Assembly: GCF_036373705.1 (NCBI RefSeq)
Contig: NC_089856.1
Location: 28,678,298 to 28,742,297 of the forward strand
Length of the DNA: 64,000 nucleotides
Reading direction: 5' to 3'
Source: Amia ocellicauda
Taxonomy: Eukaryota > Chordata > Actinopteri > Amiiformes > Amiidae
Shown here: one piece after another, positions 371 through 63,246 of the stretch
Layout: each line of letters begins with the position of its first letter
How positions within the stretch are numbered: position 1 is the stretch's first letter
Program-made: the position numbers and the translations under genes
Notes under the pieces: generated by a model
Seen by the model: the letters and a program-made list of their open reading frames with translations, nothing else
Told to the model about the DNA's origin: nothing
Databases searched by the model: none

Positions 371-689
371 CGTTATGTCAATAGGTCACACTGATGTGAA
401 GTCATTGATTTAGAACTTCTGTCTTGACACTGGCAGAATTAAATGTGGGTAATTTTCTTTAGTGCCTCTTACAGATATCCATTAGCTGTATCTGGGTATT
501 ATTCCTCATCAGCTGTAATTGTTAAAGGAAAAAGACAAACTTGAATGAGGTAGGAGCAGGGAGAAAGCTTGGTTTCTGAGGGATTTTGTTACTCCTGTCG
601 ATGAACCAATGACTTGACATCACAGCACCCACGACTTTAACTCCCCAGTGCTGACTTTGTAGCAAAGTTTGTTGGTTGTAGAGTAGCAC

Positions 690-13857: not shown

Positions 13858-15822
13858 TTAATGCTCAAATGTTGTGGCCCTCCAGTATCTCTTCTTGATC
13901 ACCATGGGAAGTAATCTGGGCCTGAAGGAAAGATAAAAGACAATGCAGATTCCAAGAAGAGAGAGGCACACAGGTAGGAAGAGCAGAATATATGTCCAGG
14001 AAGGCTCCTCACCATTTTTATCAATACACATGTGAGAACCAAAGAGCCATTCCCTGCGTCCAGTATTGGAAAGGAGACATGTTGCCTCTGTTCTATCCTC
14101 AATGTTCATAGTCACTTTTTCTTGAAATATATCCAACCAGTCCAGCTCGCAGCAGTTGAAAGGGTTTCCTCCAAGGAAGAGAGTCTGTATGCTGTGACCC
14201 AACACTTTTGCCTGGTCAGGAAGGATAGTGGTTAAATTGTTGTCTCTCAAGTCCAGCAACTTAAGACTGAGGCTTAGTATGGAATCTGGAAGGTGGGTTA
14301 GTGAGTTTCTGGAGATGTCTAAAGACTTTAAGTGTGTGCATGGTGTAAAGTCAAGATGGGATATAGCGGTGTTACCTAGGCTCAAATGTTGCAATGTTCT
14401 GCTGAGGCTTTGCAACATATTCTGTTCTATGTGGATTCCTGGATTGTTGGTTAATTCCAAATGTGTAATGGGTGTCCCTTCAAATGCCCATGGTGGCACT
14501 TTTTGTAAATTACAATTTAATAGATGCAGGTGGCGCAAGGAACTGATATTTCCCCACATGGCACAGTCTGAGTAGTTTGCATCTGCACTTCTATCTTCAG
14601 TGGAGCAAATGCCAACTTTGTTATAACTGAGGTCCACAGTTGCCAGGCTCTGCATGCCTACAAACAACCTGGGAGGGATTGTTTGCAAATAATTGGAGCT
14701 CAGGTTGAGATGGGTCAAGTTGGGCAGGACGTGCAACAAGCTTTGGTTGGTACGAAGCTTTGTCAGTAGGTTATTGCTCAAGTCCAGTTCGATGAGAGAA
14801 GCTGGGAACTCCTCAGAAGTTATATCCAAAGACTTCAAACAATTCCTTCCTAGCCTGAGCCTTGATAGTGATGGCATCTTACTTAGGAAGCCACGCGGGA
14901 GGTAGTGGATCTGGTTTTGGCTCATATCTAGCAGGTCCAGGTATGAGGTGTTACTGTACAGGGTTTCATCCCACAGGTTGGCGGTGGTCACATTTGTAAT
15001 GTTGTTCAGGTTGTAAAACTGGATGGTGGTGGGCCAGTCTTCAGAGTTGTTTTCAGCCAGGTGTTCATAAAAGCTGAGCTGGTTGTTGGAGAGCAGCAGG
15101 TTGCGAATGTGGCTGCGGTTTGGAAGAAGGGGAAAGAAGAGGAGCTTGTTATCTGAAAGGTCTAGAGTCTCCAGGTAAAAGACTTCTTCCATGTCCTGGG
15201 TGGCAATGAACCACTCAATGGCATTGTGGCTGGCATTCAGTACCACTAACTGGGTGAGATGGAAGTCCATCAGACAGGGCAGGTTGTTGAAAGCCAAACT
15301 GAGCCTTTGGAGTTTCTGCAAACTGTGAAAGGCATGTTCCTCAATCTCGAATAGGAGATTCCTCTCCAGGTTGAGCTCCACCAGCTGATGGAGGCTGCTG
15401 AAGATGGACCTGTCCAGCCTCATCAGGAGGTTCCTGGATAGAGAGAGGACTTCCAGTGAGGTGAGATTCTGCAGAATGAATGAGGCCATGTCTTCATTCA
15501 GCTCATTCCCTGAAAGGTCCAAAACTCTCAGTCTAGGCAAAAGGCGCAGAGCCAGACCTGTCTGATGGTAACCTGTCTCAAGACTGTTTTTGGCCAAGTT
15601 AAGGTTTTCCAAGCAAGGTGTGTTGGAAAAGACTCCATGTTCAATGCTCTTTAAGCCATTGTCAGCGCAGCTCAGAGTGCGGAGTTGAGGGTACTGAGCA
15701 AGGGAGGAGTTTTCCAGCACCTTAATATAATTTTTGTTCAACTGGAGCTCATCAATGTTTTGTGGAAGATTTGAGGGCACAGTCATTAGCAGACAGTCAC
15801 TGTACATCGCAGTCCTCTGTAT
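13858..15822 (-). CDS. nrros: nrros main coding exon
   Basis: The acceptor AG (15824-15823) follows a T-rich tract, and the exon begins ATA CAG AGG ACT GCG before the Met at 15807. That Met is internal: the upstream residues plus exon 2 restore the N-cap that aligns with human NRROS. The exon carries all LRRs, the membrane helix and the stop TAA at 13858-13860. Confidence 0.93.
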   Translation of the reverse strand: MQRTAMYSDCLLMTVPSNLPQNIDELQLNKNYIKVLENSSLAQYPQLRTLSCADNGLKSIEHGVFSNTPCLENLNLAKNSLETGYHQTGLALRLLPRLRVLDLSGNELNEDMASFILQNLTSLEVLSLSRNLLMRLDRSIFSSLHQLVELNLERNLLFEIEEHAFHSLQKLQRLSLAFNNLPCLMDFHLTQLVVLNASHNAIEWFIATQDMEEVFYLETLDLSDNKLLFFPLLPNRSHIRNLLLSNNQLSFYEHLAENNSEDWPTTIQFYNLNNITNVTTANLWDETLYSNTSYLDLLDMSQNQIHYLPRGFLSKMPSLSRLRLGRNCLKSLDITSEEFPASLIELDLSNNLLTKLRTNQSLLHVLPNLTHLNLSSNYLQTIPPRLFVGMQSLATVDLSYNKVGICSTEDRSADANYSDCAMWGNISSLRHLHLLNCNLQKVPPWAFEGTPITHLELTNNPGIHIEQNMLQSLSRTLQHLSLGNTAISHLDFTPCTHLKSLDISRNSLTHLPDSILSLSLKLLDLRDNNLTTILPDQAKVLGHSIQTLFLGGNPFNCCELDWLDIFQEKVTMNIEDRTEATCLLSNTGRREWLFGSHMCIDKNGEEPSWTYILLFLPVCLSLLGICIVFYLSFRPRLLPMVIKKRYWRATTFEH

Positions 15823-17786
15823 CTGGTCAAAAACAGAATGGTTACAGGGGTTACTTTACAAGACCAATATACGTCCATCAAAATAAAGCAATCATACTCA
15901 TCACTGTTACCACATGAAACCATGGCAAATCCAGACACTGATAAAATAAGCACAAAACTGTATACCCTATCTCTTCTCCCAGACTGTAATATAAATTTAG
16001 ACTGGAAGTATAAATACACAAACTGCAGTACAGCATCAGCAGAATTCGGTAGTTAAAATAAATTAGATGCCAAATGTAATGGCTTTCTTAAAAAAATAAT
16101 GCAGAAATTGAAATTTGTATGGTTAGGTTTTTTGTTTTGTTTTTTCATCTGTATACTTGAACTGTACTTGAAGTTTTATAACACAATACAAGTTAACCAA
16201 AATAATTTAAAAAAGCTTTGGCATATTGTGCATTTTAATACTGTAGGGTGTGGGAATAAATCCTATTGATCTGAGATAAAAACAATTAGGAAAGTTAATA
16301 CTTTGTTGTCTGCATTAATCAGTTCTCCGTTGTGGTTTTCTTTGAATCTGTGTCTCTCTTGCCTTAATTAAGACACATCCCATGCAATGGTTCTTTGTAA
16401 ATATGTATGCCTTAAACCAATTTTCTCATCATGATGTATCATTAAACCTAGAAAGGTATTGCAACACCTTTCAGACCCTTGCCTTCACATCAATCCCTTT
16501 GGTTTCACACTTCTGTTCAGCAGGCTCAATGTCAGCACCCTTAGTAGACTTTTTCTTCTTTACACTTTCTTTCATTTCAATTGCTTATCCACTCATGACA
16601 GCAACTGATAAAACTAAGAACGCAGCAGTCTGTGAAAACGTGCCATTGTGCTCCTAAGTTGCAGCAGTAGTAGACTGCCAGAAACCTGTGAATGTCTGTG
16701 TGACAAATGTGATGATGCTTAGGATAGAAGATGCAGCAGGTTGCAAATTTCAGGCCCCTATCTTTATATGATATGCAGTTGTATATATAGGCTATGTATA
16801 CCTTGATTTATTTTGGTAAGTACTAGCACTAGCACTAGCCAGCACTATAGAAGATGTATGTCTATTTCAAAAACCTGAAATGTGCTTAAGCTTTGGAGCT
16901 GCCTGAACCATGTTTGCATTAAAAACTTACTTTTTCTAGGTACAAATCTGAATCTAAAAGATTCCAGATTTGCTTTTGACAGCTGAGGGATGGGAAATCA
17001 TATAGGGAAGTATATCAGGGTTGCGCAAGTTTGCGTGCATATATCTCTGACAATGAGCTTCAGAGTTTTATTCATTTCCCCTGCACACTTCCTGCAGGCT
17101 GACCTTTCTGAAGCTTGAGCAGTTTGAAGGCACAGTTGTTAATTGCAAGGTACATGGAGACAACAGATAAGCACAAAATATAATACATATAAGCCATACA
17201 AGTACAGCAAATTAAAGGTGATGTAGTGTTTTTTGTATGTTTTTAATTTTTTGCAGATGCCCTTACCCAGGTTGTTTTCATATTACATAGCAATGGCAAC
17301 TACTGCCAGGTGAACACACAATGCTTTTTAAGGTACTGCTCAGTATAAGTTACAAGCATGTCCATAGCCTGCACTTCAAAACCTGATTGTAAGGTCTGTG
17401 ATTGGCCTTAGTTCTTGCATGTTGACTTTACCCCTTTTAAAAATTACAGTTTCTGTTGTGATCAATTATACTGCTTACTGCGTGGTCTGCAGAGATCTCC
17501 CCCAAGATTCAGGTGAACCGCAATCAGAAATATCTGAGACTTTTAGTTTTTTCTCTTAATTTTCATGAAATAAATGCCTTTCCAGAACTCTTATCCTCCA
17601 CAACTTCCCACCCATCAAGTTACTCTTAACTGATTTTTTTTCCACAGCCTACCCTCTGAATGTTGGATTAGTACTTACCACACTGCAGGAGGTTTGCTGA
17701 GGGTGAATAGAAGCAGAAGCCAGCAAGTTGCAGAGTTGACCCAGAGTGAAGTACAACAGGCAGGGTATGTAGTGCAGAATTGGCAT
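13858..17786 (-). CDS. nrros: negative regulator of reactive oxygen species (LRRC33)
   Basis: Two coding exons, 17786-17679 and 15822-13858, join in phase 0 to give about 690 aa, close to the 692 aa of human NRROS. The family is an LRR type I membrane protein of myeloid cells and microglia that anchors latent TGF-beta1 and restrains NOX2-derived ROS. Visible parts are a signal peptide (from MPILHYIPCLLYFTLG), an N-terminal cap, about twenty LRRs over residues 55-600, a cysteine-bearing C-cap (GGNPFNCCELDWL), one membrane helix near 647-669 and a short basic tail. LQNLTSLEVLSLSRNLLMRL and NNLPC distinguish it from its relative LRRC32/GARP. The two cysteines used in this family for disulfide linkage to pro-TGF-beta have equivalents in NNLPC and LGRNC, at about residues 219 and 364. 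fbxo45 lies next upstream, as in human 3q29. A non-coding first exon was not found. Confidence 0.95.
15823..17678 (-). other. nrros intron
   Basis: GT-AG intron between the signal-peptide exon and the LRR exon. It holds no coding feature. It contains one copy of a local 70-bp duplication (16695-16766) and a diverged LINE-end motif at about 17245-17290. Confidence 0.85.
16695..16766 (+). repeat. local duplication, copy 1
   Basis: A block with TGACAAATGTGATGATGCTT and TTGCAAATTTCAGGCCCC is repeated at 17837-17905 with few differences. The two copies flank nrros exon 17679-17799. Confidence 0.9.
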
Positions 17787-29805: not shown

Positions 29806-32386
29806 CTGTAACACAATAGCAGGGTAAATTCCAAATGTCCCGTTTGATATCGATGCTCACTGACTCACTAACGGCCTGATACAAAGACAATTTAGGCATT
29901 GGTCCAAGCTAGATTTAAACATACGGTATGACATAATCAGATGGCTCAATCCTGACTGTTTACAAACAGGCTCTTCTTTAAGGTACTCCCTACAGACTGT
30001 AGATTAATTCACATTTTCCTATAGTAATTGCATTTCTTACATAAGGAAGTACACTGGCAATTAATGACATGGCCTTCTTTAACCCTGCAAATATAATTGG
30101 TGTGCTTTGATTATTCACAATATACATTAAAGAAGGCCACAGTTTTTAACACCTGCAACTTTTGAGTTCGCCATTAAAGTGGCATTCACACAAGTGGCAA
30201 AAAGGTATAATTATTTCCTTTACCAGAATAAAATAATATTACACCCATTTAATTTTTATTCAGGACTCTTACAGTTAACTGATCCACACCAATCAAACCA
30301 ATATTTTTGTTATAAGCAAGATCTAGATAAGCTTCAAATAAATATGAATGTCATTATGCAGAGTAAATGCCATATTTAAAAACACTAAATGTACAACATA
30401 GACCTTACTTAATTATATTACTACATTTTGAATGGGGTCCACTTTAATTAATTTATTTTGTTACATATGGCACCACTTATGTGAGGTAATTTGTAAATTA
30501 GTAAATTCCAGAGAGTGAGGAGATATGCTCTTTACCCATTTCCTGCTGTGGGTGTTCAACCCTACTATCACAATGCCAATCACAGCCAACTATATGTACA
30601 GTTGATTAATATTACATTGACAAATAAATATGAATAATACAATATAATTCTTACTGCTTCAATTACACAAACACCTTTATTTGTCCAACAATTTATCCCA
30701 GGTGTCTTCTTTCAAGAGCTAACAATTAGGCTTGCTGTCAATTGATCTCAGAAGGGTAATAACTAATAATCCAGGGGTTATCAAAACCCAGACCTTCCAC
30801 ACTATTCTGAAGTCTGACACATGACTGGAGTCTGGCACAACGTGAGTGGACACCCCCCACCCTTGTCTCCCATACCTGGTACTTAGGTGCGTTGTTGCAC
30901 TGTGGGAAGTTGCCGTTGACCTCTCCGTTGTGCAGCAGGTTGTTGTCCACCAGGTTCCAGCCCCAGCTCTGGTCATCACTACCCAGGAGCGCTACATAGC
31001 CTTGGCACTGCATGGCGGCCCTCTTGGTGGCAATGCCAATGACAGCCACGGTGCCCAGCGGTCCCTCCCACCAGATCTCCCAGGCATGGCGGCCCTCGGA
31101 GAAGCCAATCTTGCCACGGGCGCCATCGGTGCTCTGTGCAATGGGGTTGCGGTGCAGGGTGAATCCGTTTTTCTTCACGTAGACATTACGAGAGCAGTCG
31201 TGGGAACTCAGGGCATGCTGGAAGGATTTCAGCTGAAGAGAAGAGGTTATTTATCAAGCTTTTGTCAAGGAGAGCAGTTGCAACTGGTGTGTGCTGCACA
31301 AGCCATCATTCTTGTAAAATCCCTATGATTGACACTGACATTACATCTCAACCAAAGTACCCCCGTGCTCTAATTGACATTCCACTTACAATTCATTTTA
31401 AAAACCTGTGCCCAATTCCAGTTCCTTTACCTATAAGCAATTCCAATATGGTTAATATTATAAAACTAACTGCACAATGTCTAGTCCATATTGACAGATC
31501 TAACATTTAGGTTAAACCATCAAGGCTGATATAGTGCATAGCGTTTCACGACCAAACACTTCTGAGCCCCAATGCAGAGTGTAAATAAAAATAAAAAATA
31601 AATCAATATATCCAAATATTTCTGCACCTGACTTATGTTTTTGCCAAATATGTTGGAATGTTCAGTTTTGCAAATGCTTATGACCGTCAATAGTTATACG
31701 ACTGAAGTGCCAGAAAACCGGTATTTTAATGTATCTTATAAATTATGTTATTTTAACCTGGCATTTAAATAACAAAAATAAACCATAAATCGTCTTAAGA
31801 GATACATGGTTACATTTCATTCAAATAAAGTTGCCTGGCTCCTCGGGATGCAGAATTGATTCATAGTAACAGCGTAGGCCAGAGTACTGCGTGGAAACAT
31901 GCGAAAACAGCTATTTAAATCAAAGACAAATCTCTTTCATTTAGTATAGCTAAACTGTAATTTCAGAAAAAAAAAAAACAGTAAGATGCAATGGGCCATA
32001 ATAATAGAACGTGCATAAGGTTAAAGGTAGTTATGCCTGGACAGCAGCAGTGATTAAAACCGGTTTACCTTCCCCTTGTAAGTGGGTAGATTGCAAAGAA
32101 TATCGGAGCGCAGAGCCTCTTCACCCAGGGTGCGGACACACAGGCTTCGCCAGACCTCGCTGTTCTCGTCGGCGCACAGGCATCTGTTCCAGTGTCTGCA
32201 GACCAATGCACAGCGAAGCAAGTCCCGGAGATCCAGATAAGAGAACACATGCTCCAGAACCCGGCTGGGCAGCCTGCCCGCGACCCCGGCACCGCCAGCC
32301 GCCGCGACAGAGCACCCGGCGGCGCCTGCACCAGCAGCAGCTCCGCCAGCGGATGAAGACGCCCCACCGGCCGCCGCTGCGGACAT
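29620..32386 (-). CDS. fbxo45: F-box/SPRY domain-containing protein 1
   Basis: Three exons (32386-32069, 31232-30876, 29805-29620), all joined in phase 0, give 286 aa, the length of human FBXO45. Residues 1-37 are an Ala/Gly-rich leader, 38-83 an F-box ([20 protein letters not shown]) and about 95-283 a SPRY domain ([24 protein letters not shown]). The family member is the substrate-recognition part of an atypical E3 ligase: it pairs with Skp1 and the RING protein MYCBP2/PAM rather than a cullin, and acts in synapse and axon development. Outside the leader only scattered changes from the human protein are seen. The start codon lies in GC-rich sequence just before the Ala run. Confidence 0.97.
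29806..30875 (-). other. fbxo45 intron 2
   Basis: 1.07 kb GT-AG intron. A 13-bp inverted repeat (TGGCCTTCTTTAA at 30070 and its complement at 30127) is the only structure I noticed. Confidence 0.85.
30876..31232 (-). CDS. fbxo45: fbxo45 exon 2 (SPRY N-terminal part)
   Basis: 119 codons, from [20 protein letters not shown] to NNAPKYQ, with acceptor CTCTTCAG and donor GTATGG. It carries most of the SPRY core, including [20 protein letters not shown]. Confidence 0.95.
31233..32068 (-). other. fbxo45 intron 1
   Basis: 836 bp GT-AG intron, AT rich, with no further feature seen. Confidence 0.85.
32069..32386 (-). CDS. fbxo45: fbxo45 exon 1 (F-box)
   Basis: 106 codons, from MSAAAAGG to TYKGK, donor AAG|GTAAAC. 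An upstream in-frame Met at 32455 exists, but MSAAAA matches the family start and gives the family length. Confidence 0.93.
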
Positions 32387-33823
32387 TCTAGGGAAAAGAC
32401 GCAGAAACAAGACAGGCAGCTGATGCAACGGACCGGACCGGAGGAAATGAATCATAAAAAGACAGACAAATGAAAACCAGACTCACAGGACGTGAGACCG
32501 GGTCGAAACCGGGACACCGCTCCTGTTTTACAGGGACCAGCGAGTCTCACACACTCACACGGGGAGCGGATAGGAAAGGACCTAACAAAAACAAGGGTCC
32601 TGGCACACGTGTAATACGCAAATGCGCTACAGCACGAGCTGCCACGTATATGTCGTATACAACGTGTTTCAAAATACATTTGAAATTAGATATATTAATT
32701 CTGTAAAGAAAATAGTGTAAATTACAAATGTTATGCACCATATAGACAATATTTGTATTGCACCACTATTAGGACCTGAGAGGGAAGCCTGCCCAGTTAG
32801 CGTAAACATGGGTGGGATTGTCATTTCCAGACTGTCAAAATTGCAGCTCCGTAAAGGATCACGTAATTGCCCATTCAAACTCGTCCCTTTTATACAATCG
32901 TAAATTCATAAAAAAAAAAAAAACACATTCACGTTTGTTGTCTTGAAATTATTTTGTTTGGCAGGGACAGCAGGAATATCTTTGGATATAACTCGATAAT
33001 ATAAAGATGTAATACACCCAGTTAAATGAATAAGTTACATGTAGATGTGGGACACTGATCAGCTAATGCACTGTACCACTGTTATTAAAACTGAATAATC
33101 AAAACGTTGCATTGTAATCTAGCTACACCCAACACCGCACTGATTTAGCTGCATTTCATGTCACGACGTAGCTGTATCCAAATAAACTCAATTTGACCTC
33201 TTATGAATACAATTTACCTTACTATATGTATGCCTGTACATAATTTAATATAGACATTATGCAGTTGTGAGGACACCCTCCTTTCAATGCGTACTGTACA
33301 CTTACGTAATGTGCTGTATTGTTATGAAGAGCCTTCTGCATCCCTAATTATAAATGTGGCTAACCCTACAATAACTTACGTTTTTAAATAGCCTATATAT
33401 TAAAGAACACCGTGAAGTGATAGGTTTAGGCTACCCTCTTCCAGTTGAAATAATATGATGTCAGTAGCCTATTTAAGATGCATTTAAGGATTCAATCATT
33501 GTTTTCACACTAGGCGCAATGTTATTTTATTCTTACATTAATTTACAAAATGATCATTAGCACTCCCAAATACAACCCGTACTGTGTGATTTCCAGTGAT
33601 GGAGCTGGGGACCCCTGTCACATGACCAGTGTGTGCGCACAGGCGAGCGGCGGTGCCGGCAGTCGGAAGTGACGCGTGTTGGTGTAGGTTTGGTTGGTGC
33701 GCAGCAATCCCAGACAGAGAGGAAAGGGGAGACACAAGAGAGAAGAAAAAATATATTTCAGTACCTGAGGGAGAAAGACAGAGCGAGAAAAATCGGGCGA
33801 TCGTTTGAAGAAGGCTGACAAAC
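32387..33823. promoter_or_regulatory. divergent promoter zone, fbxo45 / fam168b
   Basis: fbxo45 reads leftward from about 32.4-32.6 kb and fam168b rightward from about 33.6 kb, so both 5' ends face this 1.2-kb zone. GC-rich, CpG-containing sequence lies at both borders, with AT-rich DNA between. CGGAAGTGACGCG at 33664-33676 resembles an ETS site joined to a CRE half, as seen in many housekeeping promoters. Confidence 0.5.
33630..33823 (+). other. fam168b: probable non-coding first exon of fam168b
   Basis: A GC-rich, purine-heavy segment ends at the strong donor AAAC|GTGAGTACC (33824). The family has a non-coding first exon, and this is the best donor upstream of the ATG exon. The 5' border is a guess. 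Confidence 0.4.
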
Positions 33824-52334: not shown

Positions 52335-52492
52335 TCACTTCTTAAAGGGCGTCAGTCTGCCGATATTCTGCCAGAAGTTGGATGTCTTGCGTTTAGGCTC
52401 TGCTAGCATGAAAACCTGCTGCTGAGGCAGGTTGGCTGGCAGCGTGGGGTGCTTCTGTCTCAGCAGGAAGTCGTAGTAAGGCCGGGTCACAG
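52335..52492 (-). CDS. arhgef4: arhgef4 last exon
   Basis: The acceptor TCTGCCCAG precedes [20 protein letters not shown]; the exon ends with the conserved TFWQN-like motif, RLTPFKK and TGA at 52335-52337. It enters in phase 1. Confidence 0.94.
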
Positions 52493-55400
52493 CTGGGCAG
52501 AGAGCAGAGCACAGAGAAAATCAGCACACGGCATGACTGTGCACAGTGAACATTGCACACAGTAACAGCCCCAGTGCGACTCATGTATCAACCTAGTGTT
52601 TCTTTACGAAAACAAATAAATAAATACATTAAAGGATATCAAACTAATCCCTGACAGGGGCTGAAACAAATGTTAGAAGCCAGAGGTAACCTATCTGATA
52701 TGGACACCTAATGTATTCTTAATGCTGTAAGAAACACTGCAAACTAGACAGCACAGTACAGGTATACCCTGCTTTGCAGGAAGTGAAAGGAAGTAGAAAT
52801 CTAAAATGAACCCAAAGAGCATCAGTCAGGATCTAGGAACTTTTAATTAAAATTAATATGTCAATTAATATGGTTAGTGTATTGGGTTTATTGTCATGAT
52901 TTATATTATTGTCAATTTATCAAACCAATTTTCTGATTAACAACATATTTATATTAGTATTTAACACATTTTCATGTTCGTTTTTTGTGTTAATGAACTT
53001 ATCCCTATTAATTCAACGTAATTAGCACAATTGTAGTTTAGAACAAATTGCTCAGGAACTGATCTCATGCAAAGTGAGGTACATCTGTATCATAAAAGCA
53101 GCACAAAGATGGGGTCAGATAATACGCTGTTAAAAATACTGAGGCTTTTGCTAAACAAATAACTATACATTTAATTTAACCTCACACACATCATGTGTAA
53201 CAGTTCACTTCTAAGACTGAATGATGTGGGAAGTACCGTGTACTACTGCTGCTCACTGCACTACTTCAAAATGGAAAATAATAGCTGTGAAATACCATCA
53301 TCTCAAAACATAATAAAAGGCAGGTAAAAGTCAAAATCCCCAAAACAATGGACCCAGGAGATGGACACAGCAAATGGGCAGTCAGTGGGGTTAACTGGGA
53401 CACTCTCACACAGCAACGTTACCCAGATCTACTGGAAGAGGTCACGGCTTTGGGACGACACCCAGGACATGGCCCTGCGCAGGACCCCCGGGGAGACCCC
53501 CACCCCCCTCTGCAGCAACAGCCGTGTCTGGGTCATGCGAGGGGTCTCGGGGAGGGCGGCTGGGGTAGGGGGGGGCCTGGGTGGGGTGGTCACAGGATCC
53601 GAGAGGCAGAGGGAGGACTGGGAGAAAGGGGGAGGAGCAGGGGATGGGCTACTGCCCAGCAGCTGCTGAATGTCTGTGACATGCCGGAAGGAGAAACCAA
53701 AAACAGATGTATAGATGACAGAACCACAGACAGACAGACAGAGGGACGGACATGCAAGAAAGGATGAATGGAGGTGAATAAAAAGAGAATAAGAACATAT
53801 GAACATGCATGAAAAGGAAGTATGCAGGTGTGGTTTGAGTGCAGGAATGTGTTTGGACTGATGTGCAGATGAGATACAGTGGGTTATGTTTCTGATACCC
53901 TCTCCAGCGAGAAGCTGACTTACTTCTGTATCCTTAGAGTGACAGTAAGATGAAAGTTGTACTCTCACAATATTTAAATTCATGATATATATGTCAAGTA
54001 GTCATGTACCTTTGGGCTTTCCTGCAGGGTGGCTCTTGCAGGCGTTTTGCATGGCCTGTTTCTTCTGGACCTCAGTGATCGCAAAACCTACCAAACACAA
54101 AACCGACCAATCGTTACCAAGCCTTAGCAAAGGTTACCATGGGCAGGGGCGGTGCAAGGGGGTAGGCATCCTAGGCAATTGCCTGGGGCCCCGGGCTGAG
54201 TGGGGCCCTCCAAATGGGAAACCCCCCCGCTCTCACGAGAGAAAACTCCCCCAATTTTCATTTCGAGGACTGTAATTTTTTCAGAATGATTCAGTACATG
54301 TCTAACAGTGTTGAAATTTAAGAATAAGTTCCATCGTCTTTATGTGTGTACTGTTTGATAATTGATAGGCTCCCAAAGGATTCTGTTAAAAAGCTCATGG
54401 TGATCAGACAATACTTCCTAAACAACAGCACAGAGAACTAGTGGAAAACGCCCCGAGAACAAGCAGGAACTAAAGACAGTTGCAGTACAGGCATGGCAGA
54501 GCATCACCAGGGAAGAAACCCAGCATCTGGTGATGTCTATGGGTTCCAGACTTCAGGCAGTCATTGACTGCAAAGGATCTGCAACCAAGTATTGAAACTC
54601 ACAATTTAATTAATGATTATGTTAGTCTGTCCAAATACTTTTGAGACCCTAAAATTGGGGGGACCACATATATAAATGTAATTCCTACACCGTTCACCCT
54701 ATTTGGATGTAACTACCCTCAAATTAAAGATGAAAGTCTACACTTAAAGCACATCTTGATTATTTCCTTTCAAATCCATCGTGGTGGCGTACAGAGCCAA
54801 ATGATGACAATTGTGTCCTTGTCCAAATATTTATGGACCTAACTGTATCTGGATTATCATGTTATTGAGGGGGAATATTGTGAAGAAATATATTCTGATT
54901 ATCTGAAGTCCAGCTATGAAATGGAAACACTGAGTTAATTTTAAATGAGAATAAGCTTTTGAAGTCAAATGCTAGATATAAGCTTTTTCTCTCGCAAATT
55001 ACTTTGTTTAAAATAAAAAATTGATACAGGCTGTTTAATATGCCTTCTTTGTTTCTAGTTTAATTCCAGATCTAACCTTCTCATTAAAGGCTGATCCAGC
55101 AGAGTGAGCTAGAGACTAGAGAAAATAGAATTGGGCGAGGAGTGGATGTGCAGATTGGAAATTGGGTGTCAGCTTGTTCCTGTCAGTGTCAAGTCCAGAA
55201 AGGTCGGGGTTGGGAGACTGTGTGTGGAGCCGTTTTTTGCAGAGGCCTCACCTGTCTCACGGTCATGCTGCACCTGCCTCCTCTCGTCGGCGAAGGCGCG
55301 GAGCCACCGCTGCTTCTGCTCAGGCTTCTTGGCGCAGAGCAGGTGCACCTCGTCAGCCCCCGGCCCCCGCAGCTTCAGGCTGTTCTTCACGCTCACGTTG

Positions 55401-56576
55401 AAGTCCTTGTCCTTCCCGTCCTCCAAGTCCACCACCTCCATCTGGTCCATGTCCACCCGCCCCTTGTAGTACAGCATGTCCCGACGCAGCAGGTCCTGGG
55501 GATAGACAACAACCAGGCACACATGAGAACACAAAGTGCAAGAGTGTATAACATTCTCTTAACAGACCCTGATGAAGCTCTGGACAGAGGGGAATCAGCG
55601 TCAGGGCTCCTCACCTTCTTACAGTAGACCATTTGGTGGTCGAACAGAAAGAACATGCGCTGCTGACTCTTGGCCTGGGGCTGGGAGATTTTGGCCATTT
55701 CCCCAGAGAAGATGAGCTCTGAGCTCCTGCTGAGAACATCGTCACCCTGAGGAGAAAATGAGCTGGTTCAGATCGGGAACTGCACGGCACCCAAAGAGGT
55801 TTGCCCTTGCTTTTTTTCTTCTACAGGGAAGTGTTAATTCTATGTTTAGTATTACACATGCGTATATAGTTTTACCCACAGTGTTATGTGCAATGACACT
55901 GCTCTAGAGGCAGACTGTCGCATTCCCTAATTCACTGGCTTTACCTCCCAGTCCTCAATGGAGCTTTGCCACTGGGCAATCTTGTCGATGTTTTCAAGGC
56001 GTCGCTTCCTCTCGTTGATCAATCTGGCCACATTCTTCATTGCGTTTAAGGCAGCTTCCACATCTTTATAGTCTCTGCAGGACAGTAGAAACAGAAGAGT
56101 ATTACTAATACTGTACCCCACGTCACTTGCTGAGCTTTTGAGGCAGGATTGAGACAGAAGGTTCAATTCCTGGCCCAACTGCACATGCTCCAGAGAGGCT
56201 GGGTGGAAGGAGCAGGCCTTGCACTCACCTGTGCTGGGGGTTGGTGTACTTGAGCAGTTCAGCCAGCTGCAGGGGATACTTGCAGATCTTCTGGACCGGG
56301 GTGAGCAGGAAGCCGTCCAAGGAGATATCGATCATCTTCTGAAGCAGGCGACAGGCCTCGAAGAAGAACACATACTTGTTGACCTTCATGAGCTTGGAGA
56401 GCTGCAGGCAGGCGCTGGGGTGGTTGTTGCAGTACTCCGAGTAGATCTGGAAATCCATTTGCTGCAAGATGTGAGAAGACTCCCCATTAGAGACCGGTCA
56501 TGTTTGAATGTATGCCATATATTTTAAATAATAATCTATTAGTCATCTTGAACTGCTGTTATTATTATTGTTATTA

Positions 56577-56626
<50 letters not shown>

Positions 56627-59600
56627 CAATTATTAATATTCAGCCTCCATGTTCCTTACATGCTCTAAGAAGCAGGACCCAATTTCGCTGAGGTGTGGGT
56701 ACTCCTTGTTGAACTTCTTCTCCAGGCCTTTGAGGAACTTTTTCTGGAACCTATAGATTTCGTCAATGTTACCGAAGATGGTACGTAACTGCTCATCCGT
56801 GAACATGTCCGTCCTCTTCCGGCACTGCTTGATGTAGCCCTGAGGGAAAAGAGGACAGCACTAATTAAACAGTTACTATTTGAGAAATTGCCATCTGTGC
56901 AATGAGTTTGGTATTAAGAAAGGATGCAAATTCACTCCTGTAGTGGTCAGATAAAGTGAATGCCCTAAATTGTTAGGTTTCAAATCTAATTGATTGTGAG
57001 ACTGGCTGATTATGTTTATTAATTCTGGAAGTTGAAATTGACAGAATAGCACATAGGATATATTTGTTACCAGACGTGTATATTATGAAGGATTAAAATT
57101 GGGCCACTCTTTAATGTGCAAGTTTTGTAGATAAAGCACATTTAAATGGCTTTTAAGTGAGAATCTGTCCAGCTGTCCATTTCCCTTTGAGTACATGAAA
57201 GCTGTGGTGGAACAACCAACAGACAATTTGACCCTCAAAGATCAGACCTTGACAGAAATCCTCCCTTTCTGAGAGAAAACCAAAACAACAAACCAAGGTT
57301 GCAGGTGCTGGGTGCTCACCTCACAGATGTCTTTGAGGTGTTTGATGTAGTCCCTCTCGGTGCTCATGATCTCGTTGATGACATTAGTCCTCATCTGCTC
57401 CTTGCTGGGCAGGGCGGGTCCCAGCCTCCGGCCCATGCTAGCACTGTCCTCCTCATGCCCGTCCTCCAGCTTGGCTAGGTACTCCTCCATCGGCTCATCC
57501 TGATTCACACGCAGCTGTGCACACAACACACTGTCACTGCCGCTCTCACTGAGCTCAGCTCACCCCCTTAACAGACCCTCAATCACTACTTCCCACTGTA
57601 GGCAAACTGCCTACTACACTGAAAAATAAATCAGATTGGGAGTTTTGCCTGCAGGGGGAAACAATGTATTCTTCCTGTATTGTAACCTTGCTTTGCAATG
57701 GCAGCTTCTGAGATATACTTTACAGTAACCTCAATGACTATAGCTTTGAAATTATCCATTGATTTATTTTTAAATGTCTTATACAAATAACTTGCAATTT
57801 CTAATCTATTGTGTTTCATGCTTTTACTGTTTCCTACTCTTTGAGTTGGATCCCCCTGTGAAAAGACCTATAAAATAATGTACAGCTAGCATGGGTGCAG
57901 CCATGGTACTGCAAGTACATATGTGAACCTTTATAGCAAGAGTTTACATCAAAGTTATTTATTGTAGGCAGGTTTAAAATGCTTTTTAACAAATACTGAT
58001 TCCGGTGACTCATTTTAGATCGGTTTGTTTAGTATGCCATTTAACTAAATCAGAGAAAGTTCACCAGCTACAGAGCTGAAAAGACAAATTATTACACTGG
58101 GCTGTTCTTCAGAATCAAATACTTGAGGATACAACTGGTTCTGATACTGCTCCCTACAGTGCAATCCAGCCAGACATCTTGTCATGTGACCCTTCTCAAT
58201 ACCGGCAGCAGCAGATTTTTTTTAAATTAAGTCTTATAAAATGTGGAGGGGGTGGTATTCATTTTATTGTTCTAGAATATTCTATTTTAATTAGCTCTGT
58301 AAATAACTTTAAAAGTACTCCTAATTAATATGTAATTATTATTACCAGTAATAGTATTCATAGTAGTAGTGAAACAGTACTAGTAGAATCATTATAAGTG
58401 AAAGCAGTAGTTGACTGTATTAGCAGTAGCTGTTGTATTTCATTAGCAGTGGTCAGCAGTGAATGTGTCGGTAGACCTGTAAGAGGAGGGTTTTTCTCAC
58501 CCGAACAAAACTGGCTGGGAACCAGCCTTCGCTGTCCAGGATCCTGCCCCACCACCACTCCTTGTTTGTGGCATCCACAACTTCGATTACATCGCCCGCC
58601 TTGAAGCCCAGCTCCTGGTCGTCCATGGTGACATGGTCCCAAAGGGCTTCTGCATACACCACGCTGCCATCACTGATCAGCTGTATAGGAGGACAAGAAA
58701 GCAGGGTTACAGACTATCTGCACCAATGGGCTAGTTTGGTTTCTCAGTAACTTAATGATTCAAATCATTTTGCAAGATGTTTTTTGAAGGACTCTAGACA
58801 ATCCCAGCCCCAGTCACCTGGACTCTGTAATAAGTGCCTCCTATTTGCAGTCCTGACCCGAACAGCACGTTATTACCAGGAAACATGAGTGAAAAATGGT
58901 TTGGGTTCAAAGAAAGAACATGGAACATGTCTAAGGTCGTTTTCAAGGGACAGGGTAAGGCTCCTCATAAACCATCACAGAGACTTGTCGTGCTCAAAAA
59001 AGCATCCCCCAAACCAGTGGCTGTGTCCTGCAGCATTGCTAACATGCTTCATGAACTTCTGAATCAGTACCTGCATGATGCCTAGAGCCAAGCTACCCCA
59101 TGCAGATGCATCTGTGTCTCTTCAGCTTTGTGCTTGGTGTTTTACTGCAGTGCTATCTCTGTGCTCATTTTAATGCAGCAGAATTTCTGAAACAGAATAT
59201 TCCTCGGCCATTGTGCACCATCCTTACCTAAGTCAACATGTTTTATATATAATTTTCTGTATCCTGATACTATTCAGTTTTAACTGTAATGGGGCACACA
59301 GTTGGGGCACACACGGTGCCCCTGCTGTAATCACCATTTACCGGCTTGTTTTTGGCTAGTTAACCCATTCAGGGTTTGCAGGGTTTCGCTTTGGTAATCT
59401 CCAGAAATGTTTCTTTACATCATGTGCCATAAATCTTACAACAGCAAATCATCAGCAGTGTTGAGCAGGTACTGCTGTCTGTGCCTCTTACTGCAAACGT
59501 TATATGTGCCAAATTCTAAAATATATGAATATTTGATGATACACTGAAATACAAATTTCACATGCACAGTAACACACACATGCACGCAAACACAGTATAT

Positions 59601-61260
59601 TAAGCATGAAAATGAATGCACTGTTTCCATCCAGTTACATGTAGATTTGTTTCTCTATTTTCGCATTTGCAGTGGTTTCTTTATTACTTGCCTCCTCCTA
59701 AGCCCATCTAAAGACCAGGCACCAAGAGCCAATCCACAAGCACAACACAGCCAGCCCCAGGCACAAACACACAACACAGAGCTCTGACTCACGATCAATT
59801 ACCACACACCGCTCTGCTCCTCAGTGGGGCTTAAAGACCTGGCTGCCTGACCCCTGAACACAGCATACGGCTGAGTGAGGCCAGCACCTGCATTGCTTGC
59901 GCCCTTCAGACCTGCATTCCTGCAGACTGCACACGGAAATTACCTCTGCTCAGTCTGACAGAGCACAGCATCAAAACCACAGAGACAACGACTAAAGCCT
60001 GTTGCTAAGCTACACACCCACAGAACCTACACTCTCCTCCACCTCCTCTTAGGAGACAAGTATCATTATGTAACTATCAAAACATATATCAGTTTTAGGC
60101 ATACAGTGTTAAAAACAACAAGAACAACCAAAAAATAAATCATCAATAAATTTAGGCTGTTCCCAAAAGCCTTCTTAAGAATTATCAATAAGATAATGAT
60201 AGAATCATTATAAGCAAGCTTCACATTGTATTTCGTGCGCTTGCCATATATTTGCAGTCTAATCATTTTAAATAAATAAATAAGGAAAAATAATGTATAG
60301 TTAAAAAAAAGCTTTAAAAATCTGCCGCAAACCCGAGGTCAGAGTCAATCTCATTCAGGATCAAAGGCCTGGTACGCTCAGTGCTTATGAGAGCTGGGTT
60401 TTCCACTTGATTATTTCATGCCTACAGGGCAGAGTACATGGATTCAGTCACATACTGTCCCTCACATGCTGCCTTTGCTAAATCACATGCAACAGTGGAA
60501 TGCCCTGTGGTGATACACAAACCCTGCCCTCCACCCAACAGAGCCACACGGGCACATGTGAGGTCCTGTGCCCTCCATGACCACAATCGGCACGATTCAG
60601 CCACCCCACTGATGCTGCTGAACTCCTAACCCAGAGCTACACAGCTGACAAATGTAAGCAGTGGGCCCTGGGCTGCATGAGCACAACTGGCAAAATAAAT
60701 GAAAAACGCATACTTTTTATAAAAACATACTTATAAATACATACACACATCTAGAATAGCAGTCTTGATTAAACCTGGTAGAATTGTGTCCTGTCTATTC
60801 CGATTCATCAAGCATACATTTATTTATCTACTACATTGTTGCGAATTACAGCCCCCCCCTCATCCGCATCCTATTACTCCCCTTCGGGTAAAAGTTGTGA
60901 CCAAAGCACACAGATAGCTCACCTCCTCCCTTTCCCTGCCTCCGACACATGCACACAAGTTTGAATGCTTCCAGAAAGTTCTACAGTCATCCAGAATTCT
61001 GTACAAACAGCAAAACCTGAAGCAACACCATAACGGCGCACGCTGTAGGGGTGGACATGAATGAAAACGGTGCTTTTGTAAAGCACCCCCCCCCACACAC
61101 CACCAAACCTGCTGATTTAGTCCTTCACTCCAGTCAGATTCTTATTCTTAATTTAGCAGTCAGTCGCCCTATGCAAAAGTAGCACTTCCTACCCGCCCGC
61201 CCGCCCAGCCACAGCTGTTCACTTTACCTGCGCTCTGCGTCTCAGATCCTGGAAGCCCAT
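52335..61260 (-). CDS. arhgef4: Rho guanine nucleotide exchange factor 4 (Asef1)
   Basis: Ten exons, all phase-compatible, give about 520 aa: 61260-61228, 58680-58501, 57514-57320, 56839-56660, 56461-56229, 56074-55945, 55746-55615, 55495-55252, 54087-54010 and 52492-52335. In order: an 11-residue N-terminus, SH3 (about 15-70; [24 protein letters not shown]), DH (about 110-300; [34 protein letters not shown]), PH (about 320-440; [13 protein letters not shown]) and a tail ending [13 protein letters not shown]. Asef1 activates Cdc42/Rac1 and is stimulated by APC binding to an N-terminal region absent from this form, so this start resembles the short collybistin-like type. Longer forms may begin outside the window. 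SH3 and DH sequence fit ARHGEF4 better than ARHGEF9 or SPATA13, and fam168b next door supports this. A possible alternative last exon is at 53429-53673. Confidence 0.94.
52493..54009 (-). other. arhgef4 last intron
   Basis: 1.5 kb intron. Apart from the candidate alternative exon at 53429-53673 it is AT rich and featureless to me. Confidence 0.8.
53429..53673 (-). CDS. arhgef4: candidate alternative 3'-terminal exon of arhgef4
   Basis: After an acceptor (CATGTCACAG ending at 53674) an open frame in exactly the phase required by exon 54087-54010 encodes 81 residues, [16 protein letters not shown] to SRDLFQ, then TAG at 53429-53431. It is GC rich, unlike the surrounding intron, and proline/serine rich. 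Used as a terminal exon it would replace the tail RLTPFKK and give about 549 aa. C-terminal variation is known in the related collybistin gene. I do not recognise the peptide, and the function is unknown. Confidence 0.45.
54010..54087 (-). CDS. arhgef4: arhgef4 exon after PH
   Basis: 78 bp, phase 1 in and out, encoding [20 protein letters not shown] onward to GKPK. The acceptor TTTGGTAG has a weak pyrimidine tract; donor AAAG|GTACAT. Confidence 0.9.
54088..55251 (-). other. arhgef4 intron with transposon remnants
   Basis: 1.16 kb intron. It holds a GC-rich repeat at about 54135-54260 (GGCATCCTAGGCAATTGCCT, a palindrome-like core) and the Tc1 3' end at 54440-54845. Confidence 0.8.
54440..54845 (+). 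mobile_element. Tc1-like element, 3' end (copy 2)
   Basis: It shares nearly the whole length of 7561-7973: transposase C-terminus with [15 protein letters not shown] and stop near 54593, then the non-coding tail ending TATGGACCTAACTG before TA. It is inserted in the arhgef4 intron, antisense to the gene, and 5' truncated. Confidence 0.87.
55252..55495 (-). CDS. arhgef4: arhgef4 exon, PH second half
   Basis: 244 bp encoding [20 protein letters not shown] through the C-terminal PH helix ([13 protein letters not shown]) to RETG; it ends in phase 1 with donor ACAG|GTGAGG. Confidence 0.95.
55615..55746 (-). CDS. arhgef4: arhgef4 exon, PH first half
   Basis: 44 codons, [20 protein letters not shown] to MVYCKK, phase 0 at both ends; acceptor TTCTCCTCAG, donor AAG|GTGAGG. 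Confidence 0.95.
55945..56074 (-). CDS. arhgef4: arhgef4 exon, DH C-terminal helix
   Basis: 130 bp encoding [20 protein letters not shown] through [12 protein letters not shown], the DH-PH linker; acceptor CTGTCCTGCAG, donor GAG|GTAAAG. Confidence 0.95.
56229..56461 (-). CDS. arhgef4: arhgef4 exon, DH catalytic core
   Basis: 233 bp encoding [20 protein letters not shown] and the conserved DH segment [20 protein letters not shown], which contacts the GTPase switch regions in this family. It ends inside the Arg codon of PQHR. Confidence 0.96.
56567..56626. repeat. (ATT)n microsatellite
   Basis: About 19 trinucleotide units in the short arhgef4 intron between DH exons. Confidence 0.95.
56660..56839 (-). 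CDS. arhgef4: arhgef4 exon, DH middle part
   Basis: 60 codons from [18 protein letters not shown] to [12 protein letters not shown], phase 0; acceptor TTTTCCCTCAG, donor CAT|GTAAGG. Confidence 0.94.
57320..57514 (-). CDS. arhgef4: arhgef4 exon, SH3-DH linker and DH start
   Basis: 65 codons from [20 protein letters not shown] to IKHLKDICE, phase 0. The acidic linker between SH3 and DH is poorly conserved in the family; the DH start [16 protein letters not shown] is well conserved. Confidence 0.95.
57515..58500 (-). other. arhgef4 intron
   Basis: 986 bp GT-AG intron between the SH3 and linker exons, with a TAG/AGT-rich patch at 58355-58440 and no coding feature. Confidence 0.85.
58501..58680 (-). 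CDS. arhgef4: arhgef4 exon, SH3 domain
   Basis: 60 codons [17 protein letters not shown] to WFPASFVR, phase 0 at both ends; acceptor TCCTATACAG, donor CGG|GTGAGA. ALWDH, the WWWG tryptophans and FPASFV are standard SH3 binding-surface elements. In the family the SH3 packs on the DH domain and inhibits it. Confidence 0.96.
58681..61227 (-). other. arhgef4 intron 1
   Basis: 2.5 kb intron; a further alternative first exon could lie here but I found none with a clear start and donor. Sequence is mixed and mostly unremarkable. Confidence 0.6.
61228..61260 (-). CDS. arhgef4: arhgef4 candidate short first coding exon
   Basis: ATG at 61260 opens [11 protein letters not shown] and runs to the donor CAG|GTAAAG, in phase 0 as the SH3 exon requires. 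No acceptor-like pyrimidine tract lies just upstream on this strand, where it is GA rich, so the exon probably extends back past 61534 as the transcript's first exon. A second ATG four bases upstream (61264) is out of frame. Start contexts of both are only moderate. Confidence 0.6.
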
Positions 61261-61372
61261 CCATGCAAACACAGACAGACAAAGAGCAGTCCCCCTTCTT
61301 TTTCCTCTCTCGCTCTCTCTGTGTCTCTCTTTCTCTCTCTTTGTTTCTCTCTCACTCTCAGTCACTGGGGCT

Positions 61373-61534
61373 CTACTGAAAGGCCAGCAGGAACATCAGG
61401 ACCACGTTGATGATGACCAGCAGCATCATGATGACAAAGACCACCACCTTCTGCGTCTCGGGGTTGAGGTTGCAGCGTAGGAAGGTGTTGAACAGGCCCA
61501 GCCTCTGCCGGGCTCTGTGGGTGCTGCGAGCCAT
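61373..61534 (-). CDS. 53-aa single-pass membrane microprotein
   Basis: ATG at 61534 to TAG at 61373-61375. Residues 1-29 are basic and polar (MARSTHRARQRLG, then NLNPETQK) with one Cys at 21; residues 30-52 are an uninterrupted hydrophobic helix (VVVFVIMMLLVIINVVLMFL). The layout is that of a small integral membrane protein with a positive N-terminus next to a C-terminal anchor. The size resembles phospholamban-type regulators, but I see no sequence match to them. It lies 112 bases before the arhgef4 ATG on the same strand, so it may be an upstream cistron of the same mRNA or its own gene. The longer open frame above ATG 61534 crosses a GA microsatellite and is unlikely to be coding. Confidence 0.6.
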   Translation of the reverse strand: MARSTHRARQRLGLFNTFLRCNLNPETQKVVVFVIMMLLVIINVVLMFLLAFQ

Positions 61535-61742: not shown

Positions 61743-63246
61743 TTCTTATTCGTACTGTCAGGAGACAAGGTCTATCTGACGCGGCATCTTGCTTAATTAG
61801 TGCCCCCTTATTCTTGTTCTCATTCTCTCTCTCTCTTTCTGCTGCCTAAGCCCCTTATACACAAGATCCAGCTAATTCTATTGGATCTGATTGACTTACA
61901 TGGCAGTTCTTTTCTCCCCCCTCTTCTTCCTTTTACGCAAAAACTAAAGGAAAAAAATGGTGGCAGGGTTTTGCTTAAGCTGCACTGGCAGAACCATTCA
62001 TCTAACTCCCAGCATTGCTTTCTGTTTTTTTTTCCTTTTTTTTTTTTTAATCATCAGGAACCAATCATCTGGCAGTGTTCAGCACCGTATCCTGGAAACC
62101 AGAGTCGCCAGACAGGCCTTAGCAACACGAAAGAGAGCAGAGGGGGAGGCAGCAGGAGGAGATGCAGTACAATAGATCTTAAAAGCTCTCTGCCTGCCAT
62201 AGCGCTAGCTATTTATTACTGATGTCAGCTGAATGTTGGCGGCCCCTGTGCGCTTTTGTGGTTATTCTTCCCATCGTGTAATACAAAAAAAAAGAGGATA
62301 TCTTCCCTGGATTATTATTTGCCAGTTTTGTCCGTGGAACTGTGGAACTAGCACACAACAATCTCCCAAATTCCTTGGTCTAGAAGCTAACAATCTGCAT
62401 TAGGACCTTGCTAATGGGATTAACAGATATCTCTGCCTTACTGTCACATTACAATCTGCTGGTGCTTGATACATACACATACAACTGTTTATTCCTTCTG
62501 AAAGGCTAATCACCACTTACAACAACACAGGTATGGCTTGTTGAACACTATTAGTGCTTCATTAGATGCCATTAATACTTTTCATTAAAACAACCTGCAG
62601 CCTAAAATTCTCCGCTTTATTAAGCCATTGCTGGTTAAAAGAAGAGGGATACATTCCTGATAACGCAAACCAGTCTAATTTAGTTTCCTACGCAGGCTGG
62701 TCCAGATTTCACCTTGACCAATCTCCTCACAGCTCAGGCATCGGGCTTTCTGAGGGTCCTGATCATTTCACCCCCAGGTGGCTTTGCACGAGCTCACAGT
62801 CTAATTCCTTCTGACATCATGAAAAGGGGGAAGCTCTGCTTTCAGCCAATGTCAGCTCAGTAGTTTAAGTACATCCACTAGCAGCCCAAACAAAGCAGCT
62901 TCAATACAGTACGATACGATACAACTGGTTCAGCAAATTCAAGGAAATGTATCGGGGGACTTTCATTTTATTTTATTTTTACAGCAGCATATGAATCTCC
63001 TCCCCCATATATTGAACGTGTGTAGTATACTGATAAGCTCTTCCCTTGTAAAATGTGATCATATGTGAGCCCTCAGTAAAACATTTTTTTACCAATCACA
63101 CAATTTTGGTGGAATGCTTTTATAGGTTGTAATTAAAACAATCAGCAATGGTTTGCAAATCGTGACTTTTATAATTGTTAGGCTACTGCAATGGAGATTA
63201 ATTATCAATTTTAATTAATGACTTCTAAGCTATATATATTTCCTTT

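Follow-up and report, generated by a model that had tools for sequence, protein, structure and literature searches.

The stretch of Amia ocellicauda DNA analysed here, hereafter the window (64,000 nucleotides (nt); contig NC_089856.1, positions 28,678,298 to 28,742,297), carries on its minus strand the gene arhgef4, which encodes a Cdc42/Rac guanine nucleotide exchange factor (GEF); the SH3 exon of this gene is preceded, likewise on the minus strand, by an open reading frame (ORF) of 53 amino acids (aa) with a C-terminal hydrophobic segment. This ORF almost certainly encodes a genuine microprotein, most likely the fish counterpart of human SMIM39, and a homologous ORF lies upstream of the paralogous gene arhgef9. 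The features on which this account turns are the following (in window numbering, except for the last).

61373..61534, minus strand: smim39-type ORF, 53 aa plus the stop codon TAG (ORF reading, hydropathy, codon statistics, arhgef9 sister)
58501..58680, minus strand: SH3 exon of arhgef4, which a short isoform would join (PDB match, Pfam SH3)
52338..57559, minus strand: remaining arhgef4 exons (DH, PH, C-terminal), exon ends approximate (sequence reading, PDB, Pfam RhoGEF)
C10:1846660-1846863 (L022:4054-4257), minus strand: sister ORF, 67 aa (local tblastn, stop-to-stop alignment)

The attribution of the downstream exons to arhgef4, proposed in an earlier note on this DNA, is correct. Pfam detects SH3 and RhoGEF domains downstream of the ORF on the same strand, and in PDB searches ARHGEF4 ranks first both for the SH3 exon (3nmz, 1.4e-34; best ARHGEF9 entry 2.8e-26) and for a DH exon (2pz1, 6e-35; collybistin 3e-29). 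Outside the window, beyond its end, a further exon of the long form of arhgef4 (about 64,540-64,630 in window numbering; L002 ~540-630, minus strand) encodes the stretch SEEDLYEDF...GGGGEQLAINE, which we take to be the region of Asef that binds APC; the frame in which this exon ends is compatible with that of the SH3 exon. Since this exon lies upstream and the SH3 exon downstream, the microprotein exon would lie inside the long arhgef4 gene. A 1,471-aa open frame found upstream of arhgef4 (L005:3952-8364, minus strand) is perhaps a large N-terminal exon of the long isoform.

The 53-aa ORF is present as the earlier note described it, running on the minus strand from 61534 to a TAG stop at 61373, and its ATG has a strong Kozak context (A at -3, G at +4). 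The best 21-residue window for a membrane helix covers residues 30-50, leaving three residues C-terminal of the helix, and the portion ahead of the helix has a net charge of +5; judged by hydropathy, the product is a small single-helix integral membrane protein. Among the 195 ATG-initiated ORFs of 40-120 aa in the window it ranks first in hydropathy (3.27 over 19 residues), a value of at least 2.0 being reached by 18 of them. Its length alone is ordinary, since dinucleotide shuffling of the 307 nt produced an ATG-initiated ORF of at least 50 aa in 780 of 5,000 cases, and shuffling of a 1.3-kb stretch did so in 688 of 1,000, but length combined with a membrane segment is unusual: none of the shuffles in either set gave such an ORF with a 19-residue hydropathy of at least 2.8, a threshold picked with the ORF's own 3.27 already known.

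The codons of the ORF carry a coding signature of their own. The G+C fractions at the first, second and third positions are 0.547, 0.283 and 0.906, and 48 of the 53 codons end in G or C, as compared with 32.6 expected from the amino acids and the local base composition; no redraw out of 20,000 synonymous ones reached the observed number. The codon-usage log-odds of the ORF amounts to 9.7 bits versus a null mean of -8.0 (p 0.0002), on a score trained on other frames of the window, a small set of 995 codons of which 640 come from one leucine-rich repeat (LRR) gene.

Further evidence for a selected protein is provided by a second locus. A search of the genome with the SH3 exon recovered, besides arhgef4, the C3 and C10 loci (both at 77% identity) and two weak matches (39-40%). 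The C10 locus is arhgef9, its best PDB match being ARHGEF9 (5.8e-35; ARHGEF4 6e-28). A local tblastn with the 53-aa ORF against 70 kb from each of the C3 and C10 loci placed the best hit in C10 (E 2.3e-5, the next being 0.067), in a 67-aa ORF that shares the strand of arhgef9 (collybistin) and precedes its SH3 exon by about 14 kb. Because composition correction was off in this search, shuffle controls were applied. The two proteins give a gap-free alignment over their final 39 residues, from stop to stop, with 12 identities and a BLOSUM62 score of 71, whereas the best unrelated score among 3,624 stop-anchored frames (from loci some of which overlap) was 13. When the juxtamembrane part and the helix of the window ORF were shuffled separately, none of 100,000 trials reached 71, and the part ahead of the helix and the helix taken alone were each unusual (15 and 12 in 100,000, respectively). 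The other hydrophobic tails collected from about 300 kb (n=92) scored 12 at best, their 184,000 shuffles peaking at 54, and shuffles of the sister ORF itself (n=200,000) peaked at 59. At the DNA level the two ORFs are 62% identical over 151 nt (E 7e-8, a value not to be taken strictly, as simple repeats there reach 2.6e-5). The G+C fractions of the sister by codon position are 0.66, 0.39 and 0.88, and the differences over the 39 aligned codons (16, 12 and 18 at the three positions) show a weak third-position excess.

The two proteins thus share their C-terminal 39 residues and a position upstream of paralogous GEFs on the same strand, but the arhgef9-linked one is 14 residues longer at its N-terminus, lies much farther from the SH3 exon and has a net charge of -2 ahead of the helix instead of +5. 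It retains the helix, including an Asn inside it and an LM pair near its end; because the helix is kept and the charge is not, the conserved functional part would be the helix and the short stretch ahead of it. The stop codon TAA of the sister overlaps an ATG (TAATG). Its single Pfam match (E 0.085, 12.9 bits, residues 37-63, over the helix) was set aside as falling below the cut-off of 25, and a profile of both sisters matched nothing in the PDB. Upstream of both microprotein ORFs there is a 34-nt A-rich element ending in ACAGAAAGCAA(T/G)GCTG (window 62010-62043, C10 ~1846917-1846950; 91% alike, E 1.3e-6); it could be a shared leader element or low-complexity chance, and was set aside because E values down to 2.6e-5 were obtained there for simple GA repeats as well. 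In the third paralog, at C3, PDB ranks ARHGEF4 (9e-28) above ARHGEF9 (1e-25); this gene is probably spata13, a name not in its PDB match list, and no family member was found in the 90 kb read there, of which about 80 kb lie upstream of the SH3 exon. In the genome-wide search (988 Mb, 385 contigs, the window lying on contig C7) the 53-aa ORF found only itself, at E values up to 0.001 and up to 10; as this search missed the arhgef9 sister, no single-copy claim is made.

The earlier note had guessed that a named human small integral membrane protein gene would correspond to the ORF, and SMIM39 fits this guess: a list of other names of ARHGEF4 includes it, beside ASEF, GEF4 and STM6 (entry in PMC7281527), in agreement with the position of the fish ORF next to arhgef4 exons. 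Human SMIM39 was reported in a PhyloCSF/GENCODE study as a protein-coding gene with brain-restricted (central nervous system-specific) expression and a peptide from frontal cortex (PMC6886504). The likeness of the two is drawn from location at ARHGEF4, size class and the human name, which denotes a small integral membrane protein. For the window this means that the ORF is very likely a gene whose human counterpart is already named, while the ORF at the arhgef9 locus is new here. The surprise voiced in the earlier note at a membrane peptide encoded together with a Cdc42/Rac GEF is lessened by the prior human annotation and raised again by the arhgef9 sister. Literature searches returned nothing for the peptide strings of the ORF, for ARHGEF4 together with a microprotein or upstream ORF (uORF), or for ARHGEF9 together with a uORF; in broader searches neither ARHGEF4, ARHGEF9/collybistin nor SMIM39, where these were search terms, appeared among the matches listed, and term counts in the main text of PMC10032668 gave no ARHGEF or SMIM names.

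How the microprotein and the GEF might be expressed depends on the features lying between them and around the ORF.

61261..61372, minus strand: GA-rich spacer of 112 nt between the ORF stop and the GEF ATG (sequence reading)
61228..61260, minus strand: putative initial coding segment, 11 residues, of a short isoform of arhgef4 (from frame and donor)
61169..61264, minus strand: overlapping out-of-frame ATG at 61264 (ATGGATGGG), 4 nt ahead of the GEF ATG; unspliced ORF of 31 aa (sequence reading)
61373..61395, minus strand: acceptor-like site, CTGCTGGCCTTTCAG followed by TAG, formed by the last ORF codons, first exon base would be 61375 (splice-site scoring)
61758..61860, minus strand: TATA-like TATAAG (~61860) and two short upstream ORFs (ATG 61823, 8 aa; ATG 61787, 9 aa) (consensus match only)

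The distance of 112 nt from the stop (last base 61373) to ATG 61260 is as the earlier note stated, and so is the capacity of this ATG to serve as a GEF start: its frame ends in phase 0 at a donor at 61227 (CAG/gtaaag) and, joined by reading, continues in frame into the SH3 exon at the tatacag acceptor at 58680. The 61227-to-SH3 junction is plausible, not strong by itself. The claim that the spacer offers no acceptor was upheld for the GA-rich spacer, where there is none of note, but it does not tie both ORFs to one exon, since an acceptor-like site stands at 61375, in the end of the ORF itself. This is the best such site between 61860 and 61228, with a score equalled or exceeded at 98 of the window's 4,191 AG sites on the minus strand; it is a possible entry for GEF transcripts devoid of the microprotein. 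The TATAAG region with its short upstream ORFs could possibly represent the promoter and leader of the microprotein exon.

Taking these data together, we consider it likely, if well short of certain, that the ORF is fish smim39, a membrane protein with a C-terminal helix that has a sister at arhgef9, that stood beside the ancestral GEF before the two genes split, and whose exon is most likely an internal alternative first exon of arhgef4. In the proposed explanation this exon would follow the APC-binding exon and precede the SH3 exon, and a transcript starting there would be read first at the strong microprotein ATG, making SMIM39 the main product; leaky scanning or reinitiation would yield, in lesser amount, a GEF that lacks the APC-binding region. 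The single helix would hold the protein in the membrane, with its positively charged N-terminal half predicted to be cytosolic, and a tail-anchored topology is suggested by the fact that almost nothing follows the helix. The simplest reading of the helix is that it binds another membrane protein. That both ORFs share one mRNA and one exon has, in our estimate, just under an even chance; the exact frame to SH3, the lack of an acceptor of note in the GA-rich spacer and the human alias listing speak for such a two-cistron arrangement.

A number of observations weigh against this explanation. As regards the protein, the 53-aa ORF matches nothing in Pfam, NCBIfam or PDB, and its probable orthology to SMIM39 is argued from location, size class and the name of the human gene. 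Upstream of the ATG the open frame continues for 79 codons, of which 58 likewise end in G or C, so that part of the codon signal is regional. At the RNA level, folding gave no support for a structure at the ORF region (z 0.58), and Rfam contained no match. Concerning the layout, the donor at 61227 is weak (matrix score 3.7), and in-frame ATG-to-donor candidates scoring at least 3.6 occur twice in the 2,840 nt examined. The two candidate GEF ATGs overlap out of frame (ATGGATGGG), both have T at -3, and the frame of 61264 runs into a stop shortly beyond the splice. At 61375, the acceptor-like site scores 3.9, versus 7.8 for the SH3 acceptor on the same scale, and lowers the odds of a shared exon. 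The ORF stop lies 145 nt ahead of the splice junction, and a stop well ahead of a junction usually invites nonsense-mediated decay unless ribosomes reinitiate. Close to the arhgef9 sister no comparable in-frame GEF start of note was found (three candidates for a first exon of 2-3 residues, scoring 3.8-4.7, none convincing), so that this locus gives no support for conservation of the shared-exon layout.

The same weak donor and ATG contexts, the stop position, the site at 61375 and the lack of a GEF start of note near the arhgef9 sister would all fit smim39 as a single-exon gene of its own, nested in an arhgef4 intron, with an mRNA not spliced to arhgef4. Such an unspliced mRNA could end near a sense-strand AATAAA at 60824, some 550 nt beyond the ORF stop, and 28 of the 50 new human genes with translations below 100 aa in the PhyloCSF study are single-exon (PMC6886504). 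What this nested arrangement leaves unexplained is the frame agreement of ATG 61260 and donor 61227 with SH3, and the SMIM39 alias under ARHGEF4 (entry in PMC7281527) hints at shared human transcripts; we regard it as a serious contender, at somewhat less than an even chance. The position of the ORF 112 nt ahead of the GEF ATG would also suit a regulatory uORF whose translation tunes arhgef4 and whose peptide is inert. This is quite unlikely, because the codon bias and the amino-acid conservation with the arhgef9 sister, up to the exact C-terminus, indicate a selected protein, and a peptide has been reported for human SMIM39 (PMC6886504). A chance ORF in a G/C-rich first exon would be unremarkable in length, as seen in the shuffles, yet no shuffle yields the helix and the arhgef9 sister in effect refutes it, making this the least probable account.

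Regarding function, the ORF product resembles the regulins (phospholamban and sarcolipin) in size and in having a C-terminal helix; phospholamban, with about 52 residues, likewise has a basic N-terminal half. A regulin-like action, in which the small helix would bind and regulate a membrane transporter such as a calcium pump, is nevertheless improbable. Phospholamban and sarcolipin are contained in the PDB, where neither the ORF nor the two-sister profile matched any chain at E up to 10, meaning that no similarity is detectable, and their LFxNF motif is absent from the helix of the window ORF. As for gene organization, a partial parallel is offered by TP53BP1/SEP53BP1, described as a dual-coding gene in which use of an alternative promoter makes a small coding ORF accessible within a large-protein gene (PMC10193022). 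A small ORF in a large-protein locus and promoter switching would be common to both, but the TP53BP1 small ORF overlaps the main coding sequence and is reached by reinitiation after a uORF, whereas the arhgef4 ORF precedes the GEF start.

The presence of homologous ORFs beside both arhgef4 and arhgef9 makes them members of one family and bears on the age of the pairing. The two GEFs of this genome sort separately with the ARHGEF4 and ARHGEF9 entries of the PDB, presumably mammalian proteins, which places the ARHGEF4/ARHGEF9 split before the fish-mammal ancestor. If the microproteins were duplicated along with the GEFs they would be equally old, as judged from one genome, and the microprotein probably predates the split. 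We tentatively propose, giving it slightly less than even odds, that the pairing of a membrane microprotein with a Cdc42/Rac GEF is older than this duplication, each GEF still having its own microprotein on the 5' side, that a sister of SMIM39 may lie unannotated at the human ARHGEF9 locus, and that both products may act together at neuronal membranes. Collybistin (ARHGEF9) is the gephyrin partner at inhibitory synapses and the product of a disease gene. Were the pairing ancient, SMIM39 would no longer be an orphan but would belong to a pair of sister microproteins, each associated with a GEF. This would provide a testable lead to function (a common membrane, a common synapse or regulation of one by the other), and ARHGEF9 would possibly have coding sequence in its 5' region, a matter of relevance to the reading of patient variants.

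Some other features of the region deserve mention. A 665-aa open frame rich in leucine-rich repeats (window 13861-15855, minus strand; Pfam LRR_8 2.3e-48) resembles nrros, and an F-box frame (window 32057-32482, minus strand; Pfam F-box-like 1.8e-14) is probably fbxo45; these two genes adjoin at human 3q29, so that finding them near arhgef4 in this genome may be of interest. Beyond the window, two frames recognized by eye resemble Tc1/mariner-type transposases (L003:441-1577, minus strand, and L003:5671-6708, plus strand; 74441-75577 and 79671-80708 in window numbering).

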